Source: a virus. From it: a stretch of 36,454 nucleotides of DNA. The stretch's first letter is position 1; each line of letters opens with the position of its first letter. The position numbers and the translations under genes are program-made. The notes below the pieces were generated by a model, which had not been told where the DNA came from, did not search any database, and saw only the letters and a list, made by a program, of their open reading frames with translations. The stretch spans positions 1-36,454 of IMG/VR virus record IMGVR_UViG_3300009157_000010. One strand, 5' to 3'. Positions 6,554-9,790 of this stretch are shown one piece after another.

Positions 6554-7099
6554 TTATTTAATATATCCAAGTTTTCTAGCACAAACCCAAGGATTTAGGC
6601 CTTGTTCTTGATAAAGTGTGTAAATAAAATCTATGTTTTTAACAAAGTCCATTCTATCTTGACGGCTAATTCTTTTAGAATGTACATCGTTTATTTGTCC
6701 GATTCCTACGTCAAAAGTTCCATTGGAGTTTTTATTTAATGCGTCCGGTCTTAAACCTGATTCACATTTCATTGTCGCAATAATTTTGGTGATTTCGGTA
6801 TCTTTAATTCCTAATTGAGTACCCTTACATCTTAAATACGTTATAGGGTCGTAATCGCAAGGAACTTCATTACTAGTCACTTCTACCGCTTTTACTTCAA
6901 TCATTGATTTACCGTCATTTGGTGAGTCTAATTTTACTTGTTTATAAGGATTGTCGGCAATGAATAATCCAAATAAAGAGCCTAATATAATTCCATCTAC
7001 TAAGGCAGCCAAAGTATATTTGTTAAACCATCTTTGAAAGTCTTGGTTTCTTTTATATCTTTGATCGAGTAAGTTTTTGATTTCTATTTTGTTTTTCAT
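6554..7099 (-). CDS. Membrane-anchored lytic transglycosylase (SLT-like)
   Basis: A 181-residue protein. A basic N-terminus is followed by a transmembrane helix at about residues 27-47 (LAALVDGIILGSLFGLFIA) and a linker. The C-terminal 80 residues carry SLT hallmarks: catalytic Glu in KCESGLRP, then NGTFDVGIGQIN and an Asn/Trp-rich end. The reaction is cleavage of peptidoglycan between MurNAc and GlcNAc. With its membrane anchor and distance from the lysis genes it more likely opens the wall locally (DNA entry or assembly) than lyses the cell. It is the first gene after the structured RNA at 7111-7386. No Shine-Dalgarno precedes its ATG. Confidence 0.75.
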   Translation of the reverse strand: MKNKIEIKNLLDQRYKRNQDFQRWFNKYTLAALVDGIILGSLFGLFIADNPYKQVKLDSPNDGKSMIEVKAVEVTSNEVPCDYDPITYLRCKGTQLGIKDTEITKIIATMKCESGLRPDALNKNSNGTFDVGIGQINDVHSKRISRQDRMDFVKNIDFIYTLYQEQGLNPWVCARKLGYIK

Positions 7100-7110
7100 A
7101 GTTTTGTTTT

Positions 7111-7386
7111 TAGAGGACTAGATGTAGGAGAATGTGGAATCGAACCACCAACAGAGTAGCGAACTCCTACACCAAGTTTCTCCTACATTTAATCCTCTAA
7201 ATTGTTAATGTTTCTCCTAGACTACCAGAAAGAGGAATGGGGCTTTGGCAGTTAACCTCACTCTTATCCTCTGTCCGATAGTCTAGGTTGTTAAATGTAC
7301 GTTTCCCTGCTTTGAGAATCTTTTAACTTAGGGTTCTGCTTCCTAAGGGTTCAGCTATTGTTTAAAGTTGTTCTGCTGTCTCAACT
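7111..7386 (-). ncRNA. Candidate structured non-coding RNA or leader with tRNA-like 3' domain
   Basis: No gene fits in this stretch. A strong minus-strand promoter (7393-7421) predicts a start at 7385-7386, exactly where the first closing stem begins. Three tRNA-sized units follow. Unit 1, 7384-7312, is closed by TTGAGA/TCTCAA and holds CTTAGG/CCTAAG and CAGC/GCTG helices plus a possible pseudoknot. Unit 2, 7287-7216, is closed by the 9-bp stem CCTAGACTA/TAGTCTAGG with an inner AGAGGA/TCCTCT helix. Unit 3, 7187-7124, is closed by the 10-bp stem TGTAGGAGAA/TTCTCCTACA, itself inside a TTTAGAGGA/TCCTCTAAA helix. Unit 3 contains GTGG-TTCGATT-CCAC, a perfect tRNA T-arm, and a GAGT/ACTC hairpin, but has no room for a D-arm. 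There is no terminator before the transglycosylase ATG, so it may be a long leader or a processed RNA. Confidence 0.6.
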
Positions 7387-7392
7387 GTAAAT

Positions 7393-7421
7393 AGTCTACC
7401 ACTATGGTTAGTGAGTGTCAA
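7393..7421 (-). promoter_or_regulatory. TTGACAC-class promoter for the structured RNA
   Basis: Minus strand: -35 TTGACA (7416-7421), 17-nt spacer, -10 TAGACT (7393-7398). The spacer core ACTAACCATA is shared with the rightward early promoter at 8475-8503. About 24 of 29 positions agree between the two, far more than promoter hexamers alone explain. Confidence 0.75.
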
Positions 7422-8474: not shown

Positions 8475-8503
8475 TTGACACTGACTAACCATAATGCTAT
8501 ATT
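8475..8503 (+). promoter_or_regulatory. Rightward early promoter
   Basis: Plus strand: -35 TTGACA (8475-8480), 17-nt spacer, -10 TATATT (8498-8503). The leader is about 20 nt and A-rich with no Shine-Dalgarno before the ATG at 8531. It shares TTGACACT-N-ACTAACCATA with the leftward promoter at 7393-7421, suggesting one regulator binds both. Confidence 0.8.
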
Positions 8504-8874: not shown

Positions 8875-9452
8875 TGGATAAAACATTAAAAGATAAAGCA
8901 ATCAATTTTAAAGGTAAAGAATATGTTGAAGTCAAAGAGAGGGTTAAATTTTTCAATGATACTTATAAAAACGGTTCAATCATAACTGAAAGACTTAATG
9001 TAGACGGTAAAGAATATTTTAAAGCTACTGTATGTCCTGATGTAGATAGACCACTAAGAATATTTACCGGACACTCTCAAGCCTCATTTTCTGATACTAC
9101 AAGTTTCGTCAATAAAACTTCGGCTACTGAAAATGCTGAAACCTCAGCAGTAGGCCGAGCATTAGCATTAATGGGTATTGGTGTTATTGACTCAATAGCT
9201 AGTATGGACGAGATTAACAAGACTACCTACACCTCACCAAGTCCTCTTAAACAATCAAATACTGATGAAGTAGTAAGAGAACCTATTGATATGTCAAAGT
9301 CTCCAACTGATGTCGATAATGAGTTTAACAAATCTACTTGCCAAAACTGTGGAGCAAAGATTGCTATTAGTAAACAAGGAAAACCATATTGTACTAATAG
9401 ATGTTGGTTGCCAGAAAATAGACACTTTATTACAGAATTTAAAAACAAATAA
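8874..9452 (+). CDS. Probable ssDNA-annealing/recombination protein with C-terminal zinc finger
   Basis: A 192-residue protein. The central segment NAETSAVGRALALMGIG (about residues 85-101) is the signature seen in many phage early proteins of the Rad52/ERF-like annealing type. N-terminal strands with VKFFNDTY and GSIITERL precede it. After a Ser/Pro linker, residues about 155-180 have CQNCGAK and YCTNRCW, a zinc knuckle. Such proteins coat and anneal single-stranded DNA during phage replication and recombination. The family call is by recognition of the GRALA motif and is moderate. It is translationally coupled to genes on both sides (TAATG). Confidence 0.55.
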   Translation: MDKTLKDKAINFKGKEYVEVKERVKFFNDTYKNGSIITERLNVDGKEYFKATVCPDVDRPLRIFTGHSQASFSDTTSFVNKTSATENAETSAVGRALALMGIGVIDSIASMDEINKTTYTSPSPLKQSNTDEVVREPIDMSKSPTDVDNEFNKSTCQNCGAKIAISKQGKPYCTNRCWLPENRHFITEFKNK

Positions 9453-9790
9453 TGAAAAAAATACAATGTCACTCAATTATTACTGGTATAAGAGCCAGAG
9501 TAGATGGAAGTTTAGGTTTGACACTTTCAACACCTGAACTAACAGCAGAGGAAAAAGTGGCTTTTATGGAGTTACAAAATATGGATTGTAAAACCCTATT
9601 TGAACCATTATCAGAGAAAGCCGATCTGATAGAAGTAAAAGGTGAAACAGAAACTAAGACATCTAGTCAAAGATTAAGAGGTTGTTTATTTGTACTTTGG
9701 GAACAAGAAGGTAAACAGGGAGAATTTGAACAATTCTACAAAACTAAGATGGAAAAGATTATTGATTGGGTTAAGGGAAAATTAGAATAA
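9452..9790 (+). CDS. Conserved phage early protein of unknown function
   Basis: A 112-residue protein. The pattern KTSSQRLRGCLFVLWEQEG followed by FYKTKMEKIIDWVKGKL is a recurring signature of a small protein found next to recombination genes in many phages. The N-terminal half is beta-rich (GIRARVDGSLGLTLSTPEL). Biochemical function is not established. Context suggests work with the annealing-like protein just upstream. Confidence 0.6.
   Translation: MKKIQCHSIITGIRARVDGSLGLTLSTPELTAEEKVAFMELQNMDCKTLFEPLSEKADLIEVKGETETKTSSQRLRGCLFVLWEQEGKQGEFEQFYKTKMEKIIDWVKGKLE

Follow-up and report, generated by a model that had tools for sequence, protein, structure and literature searches.

The window (the whole stretch of DNA analysed here, 36,454 nucleotides from an uncultivated phage) contains an untranslated, structured RNA of ~278 nt on its minus strand. 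The RNA is real, and it has neither an Rfam entry nor an earlier description that we could find in open-licence papers; structured phage leaders are themselves already known. A σ70-type promoter precedes it, a lysozyme gene follows, and a counterpart occupies the same place in a second phage that is only distantly related. Compared by sequence and predicted fold, the two RNAs form one conserved structured RNA family. The RNA probably controls the genes downstream.

Layout and folding of the RNA

On the minus strand, a gene for an 82-aa protein (7679-7431) is followed by the promoter, the untranslated stretch and the gene for a 181-aa lysozyme-like protein (Table 1). The promoter, TTGACACTCACTAACCATAGTGGTAGACT, is the near-consensus element of the original prediction, and its predicted start is the 5' end of the RNA. 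The 3' end is 9-10 nt upstream of the lysozyme start codon. There is no ORF in the gap 7430-7100, and the sole ATG within the RNA is directly followed by TAG, which bears out the earlier claim that no gene fits here.

Table 1. Coordinates of the RNA, its parts and its neighbours in the window.
Feature	Position	Strand	Remarks
σ70-type promoter of the RNA	7393-7421	-	TTGACA-17-TAGACT, extended TG; predicted start A7386
Untranslated structured RNA, whole element	7109-7386	-	fold energy; homologous core in L181
Unit 1	7327-7378	-	hairpin 1a (7378-7375/7355-7352); hairpin 1b (7347-7342/7332-7327, 9-nt loop)
Unit 2	7216-7287	-	13-14 bp helix (7286-7274/7229-7217 plus outer pair); inner helix
Unit 3	7110-7200	-	outer helix 7200-7190/7120-7110, A.C mismatch, inner helix 7188-7178/7132-7122
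T-arm-like hairpin GTGG-TTCGATT-CCAC on acceptor-like stem, D-armless cap	7134-7148	-	inside unit 3
181-aa protein	6554-7099	-	apparent N-terminal membrane helix; SLT/SLT_3 lysozyme-like domain (Pfam)
Rightward early promoter, twin of the RNA promoter	8475-8503	+	TTGACACTGACTAACCATAATGCTATATT; near copy of 7393-7421

Of 1206 stretches of 276 nt sampled across the window, that of the RNA has the lowest folding energy, -90; the mean is -48 and the standard deviation 10.7. Compared with dinucleotide shuffles, the fold of the whole RNA has a z-score of -6.6. The minus strand folds better than the plus strand, and the wobbles in the helices compared below are G.U on the minus strand where they would be A.C on the plus strand. 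Hence, the signal is that of an RNA from the minus strand.

The original prediction divided the RNA into three units closed by perfect stems. Inverted repeats closing units 2 (7287-7216) and 3 are indeed present; the lengths and stabilities given for the stems were partly wrong. Units 2 and 3 are very stable (z-scores of -7.5 and -9.1 against mononucleotide shuffles), and the supposed 10-bp stem of unit 3 is actually a rod in which two 11-bp helices flank a single A.C mismatch. Unit 1 alone folds no better than chance (z -0.4 to -1.0) and its 6-bp closing stem is, by eye, unconserved; what survives of it are two inner hairpins, which are conserved in the second phage. A switch between alternate folds had also been proposed, on the basis of the 8-nt complement ACATTTAA/TTAAATGT. 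This pairing is at chance level, since ~20% of shuffles reach it, and it is missing from the second phage. Thus, ACATTTAA/TTAAATGT does not provide the conserved, mutually exclusive pairing of a riboswitch-like element.

No Rfam 15 covariance model matches the window at its gathering score. A search at relaxed thresholds gave nothing convincing for either RNA; the tRNA-Sec score of the window RNA was 23.2 bits.

Conservation in a second phage

The sole homologue found is in L181, the phage contig IMGVR_UViG_3300020045_003034 (39,511 bases; phage G070). The search route that led to it, the third used, started from an early protein encoded at 9452-9790 in the window. The RNA of L181 is ~425 nt long and, as in the window, is directly upstream of a lysozyme gene. 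Its first ~200 nt align with the window RNA with a local score of 47, against 16.1 +/- 2.8 (maximum 28.5) for 1000 mononucleotide shuffles. When each RNA was folded separately to its minimum energy, the same four helices appeared: the two hairpins of unit 1 (1a and 1b), the helix of unit 2 and the outer helix of unit 3. All 33 pairs that they contain in the window are kept in L181; 16 are changed on both sides and none is broken.

The unit-2 helix keeps 13 of 13 pairs with 5 double changes. When the partner strand was slid by 1-3 columns, only 31-46% of cells were paired. The observed pairing values were reached by 19 of 500 shuffles, which is about the limit for two sequences. Units 1 and 3 behave likewise: the outer helix of unit 3 has 11/11 pairs and 6 double changes, and the hairpins of unit 1 have 9/9 pairs and 5 double changes. 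Here the alignments were placed by hand between conserved flanks, which biases them towards structure. The original prediction had named compensatory changes in related phages as its check. They are found, in a comparison of two sequences.

The RNAs also share unpaired stretches, such as AAGCC and TTAACAATT. They differ most between the outer strands of unit 3, which are separated by ~70 nt in the window and ~200 nt in L181. The closing helix ends ~10 nt (window) or ~20 nt (L181) before the AUG. The lysozymes that follow are 46% identical over 115 aa. Most structural genes of G070 are not recognisably related to those of the window; the early/lysozyme module and a few others match. The order of promoter, RNA and lysozyme gene is common to both phages. 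In both, the RNA heads a leftward unit spanning most of the genome. A DnaD-like replication gene adjoins the RNA region in the window and none was seen beside the RNA in L181. Separately, G070 appears, from a reading of its sequence, to encode a GroEL-like chaperonin (L185, 14396-15961, minus strand).

The promoters provide a further parallel. In the window, the RNA promoter and the rightward early promoter share TTGACACTnACTAACCATAnTGnTA, which has 2 matches where 0 are expected. The L181 promoter, TTGACACTACAATCATGTAGTGGTATTAT, has the same location as that of the window RNA and an almost identical build; the RNA promoter stands at a fixed distance in both phages. In G070, this promoter and the rightward promoter TTGACACTACACAAATGTAGTGTTATACT share an inverted repeat, CACTACA-n4-TGTAGTG, with a core different from that of the window pair. 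These sequences suggest that the RNA and early promoters are co-regulated in both phages. Because each phage has its own promoter pair, a phage-specific regulator that binds both promoters may be involved. The gene directly before the L181 RNA has a helix-turn-helix match, making its product a candidate for this regulator. In the window, a coding start follows the rightward promoter within ~30 nt, and no leader comparable to the RNA heads the rightward early operon. Taken together, the compensatory changes, the shared promoter position and the twinning with an early promoter in each phage uphold the original claim of a promoter-driven structured phage RNA.

The DNA sequence of the RNA, searched against 50,697 phage records, gave no homologue, and neither did exact and gapped patterns in IMG/VR or the first neighbour-gene searches, which used the lysozyme and the DnaD-like gene. 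Relatives of the terminase and tail proteins led to dozens of phage contigs, none of which has the RNA; it is absent from all of the ~40 other relatives scanned and from two genomes with lysozyme relatives. Model R2, run on 379 genomes from the same phylum as G034 (a MAG titled Candidatus Woesebacteria), had no match. The closest terminases are in bins labelled Micrarchaeota, Aenigmatarchaeota, Nanoarchaeia, Woesebacteria and others, which may be misbinned. L041 was rejected as a collinear relative since its corresponding stretch is coding. The structured non-coding stretches of G008, G053, L177, L178, L088 and L090 were also set aside, having no sequence homology to the window RNA.

Several observations were made in passing. 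Strongly folding non-coding stretches, with no sequence homology to the window RNA, occur at L177 8890-9166 and L154 8380-8700 (both plus strand). At L061 1225-575 (minus strand), a strongly structured stretch of ~650 nt without an Rfam match lies upstream of a lysozyme-like gene; this phage carries DnaD-like and DnaB-like genes. Many related contigs, among them L004-L007, L010, L013, L018 and L020, end 0.4-1.2 kb upstream of terL, as if at a physical genome end.

Possible functions of the RNA

We lean, with slightly more confidence than doubt, towards the RNA being a cis-acting 5' leader at the head of the lysozyme-led leftward operon. The promoter twinning, the homology, the compensatory pairs and the position near the start codon are read directly from two homologues; transcription from the promoter at 7421-7393 and action in cis are what we infer. 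A phage-regulated promoter, twin of the early rightward promoter, would start the transcript at about 7386. The nascent RNA would fold into the conserved core of hairpins 1a and 1b, the unit-2 helix and the unit-3 closing helix. Polymerase would then continue into the membrane-anchored lysozyme gene and probably through the whole leftward structural operon. A scan for terminator-like sites, which cannot exclude Rho-type termination, found none between the RNA and the lysozyme gene. The gene itself does not need the RNA, since relatives in G017, L086 and L081 have no RNA before them.

Such a leader might act in two ways. Antitermination is the likeliest mode and takes about half of the confidence placed in a leader: the folded RNA would load onto RNA polymerase and permit read-through of the operon's terminator-like hairpins, as does the put RNA of phage HK022. 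We place this mode first on two grounds: the 5' end of the RNA is the predicted start, and the leftward unit downstream of it contains such hairpins (2 in the window and 6 in G070, with 0 on the other strand). Close behind, and nearly as likely, is a gate on translation, whereby the unit-3 helix, ending ~10-20 nt before the AUG, would limit lysozyme synthesis until cut or unwound. Rather improbable, in our estimation, is a further reading, in which uncultivated phages have a novel kind of processive antiterminator, or operon gate, made of RNA alone. With its conserved core driven by the early-promoter twin, polymerase would be committed to a structural operon of roughly 30 kb with terminator-like hairpins; the cap would be exchangeable, and in the window phage would have turned into a D-armless tRNA mimic.

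The hairpins form a pattern of their own. In the window (641-620 and 17981-17960, both minus strand) and in G070 (L185, L186) their U-tracts run into late-gene start codons; the genes behind them include the ORF after terL, read as portal, and a 225-aa gene. In the 22 phages of the group whose late strand is known, 34 such hairpins stand before late-strand starts and 0 before early-strand starts. We also asked whether the hairpins track the presence of the RNA. They do not, being found in most relatives that lack it. Hence, they are no pointer to the RNA, and the argument for antitermination is weak.

Unlikely, and yet the most serious of the rivals to a cis-acting leader, is a phage non-coding RNA acting in trans: released from the leader by processing or termination, it would act on host or phage targets early in infection, with the lysozyme gene a mere neighbour. 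Its early-type promoter, its very stable and separately folding units, the ~23 bp of unit 3 as a substrate for RNase III, and the conserved unpaired AAGCC and TTAACAATT would suit this role, and unrelated structured non-coding stretches occur near lysozyme genes in G008 and L177. It fits poorly with the closing helix abutting the start codon in both phages, with the retention of the same lysozyme neighbour despite different structural genes, and with the lack of a detectable terminator at the RNA 3' end. The wobbles, G.U and not A.C on one strand, argue against a DNA element acting without RNA, such as a replication origin or a packaging or recombination site. So do the conserved single-stranded segments and the fixed distance of the promoter in both phages. 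Long inverted repeats are present, as this explanation would have it, and a DnaD-like gene adjoins them in the window; beside the RNA in L181 no such gene was seen, and we give the idea little credence. Lower still we rank an ordinary structured spacer whose palindromes arose by chance and have no function. Only two examples are known, with none among the ~40 other relatives scanned, which would suit a spacer; the fold z-score, the homology, the 16 double changes and the conserved promoter geometry would not.

Unit 3 could also be a tRNA mimic or a decayed tRNA, a decoy for host tRNA enzymes or defence nucleases. It has a B-box, GGTTCGATTCC, and a T-arm with a TTCRANY loop stacked on an acceptor-like stem. 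The combination of such a T-arm with an acceptor of at least 7 bp occurred in 0 of 300 shuffled windows, in a test framed after the motif was seen. Judged from its sequence, the tRNA-like look is not a matter of chance. Conversely, ARAGORN called 0 tRNA genes in the window, and the unit has no D-arm or D-stem, no canonical anticodon arm and no CCA, with only ~29 nt from acceptor to T-arm. Its Rfam score for tRNA-Sec (RF01852) is far under the cut-off of 47 bits. In the energy model, which leaves out modified bases and tertiary contacts, the rod fold is preferred and the T-stem has a probability of 0.001. The T-arm is absent from the L181 counterpart, which suggests a variable cap, and a tRNA was rejected as the essence of the RNA for the same reason. 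A decoy of this kind is therefore very unlikely in our view. As for the "three tRNA-sized units" first described, the phrase fits their length only: the tRNA-like motif is in unit 3 alone, and unit 3 of L181 is ~225 nt and not tRNA-like.

Other tRNA-like elements were noticed in other phages. The non-coding L088 17122-17460 (plus strand) has a tRNA-like unit in which TGTGAG-TTCGAAT-CTCACA sits on a 7-bp stem; further G+C-rich hairpins come next, along with a terminator-like hairpin. L090 19159-19301 (minus strand), uncalled by ARAGORN, has a 7-bp acceptor, a T-arm (TGAGG-TTCGATT-CCTCA) and an 8-bp anticodon-like stem whose loop, GAGTACT, lacks U33. At L062 465-530 (plus strand), in a distant phage, a tRNA-like hairpin with GGTTCGAATCC and a subsequent T-run reads as a tRNA-like terminator; the gene downstream of it was read as a scaffold gene.

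Comparison with known systems

This would be an RNA family without an Rfam entry, common to two phages that differ in most structural genes and that each have a phage-specific promoter pair. By the features compared, the window RNA is not a tRNA, not GOLLD or ROOL, and not put. It resembles tRNA-Sec (RF01852) in the T-arm with GGTTCGATTCC and the acceptor-like stem of unit 3, and differs in a 23-position extended stem, the missing D-arm and CCA, the score of 23.2 against 47 bits, and the lack of conservation.

The PL leader of phage lambda, upstream of N, combines an early leftward promoter with a structured leader and a long helix before the first gene. The window RNA has the same arrangement, with a leftward early-type promoter; the first gene after it encodes a lysozyme, not an antiterminator. 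GOLLD and ROOL, ornate structured RNAs of phages, have no known function and often lie close to tRNAs; GOLLD often exceeds 800 nt (PMC12286853). The window RNA is likewise a structured phage RNA. Conversely, it is smaller and has no Rfam match, and there is no tRNA gene in the window.

The put RNA of HK022 is ~70 nt long, has two stem-loops, and lies downstream of both PL and PR; through it, RNA polymerase ignores terminators by way of the β' zinc-binding domain (PMC9378689). The window RNA, compared by these described features, is not a ~70-nt, two-stem RNA at both early promoters: it is 278 nt long (~425 nt in L181), with more helices and one promoter only. If it acts as an antiterminating leader, RNA-only antitermination would not be confined to the lambdoid phages, and transcription past hairpins that abut late gene starts could be explained. 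Like put, it is a structured RNA that closely follows an early-type phage promoter and heads a long operon, and no dedicated phage protein has to be assumed.
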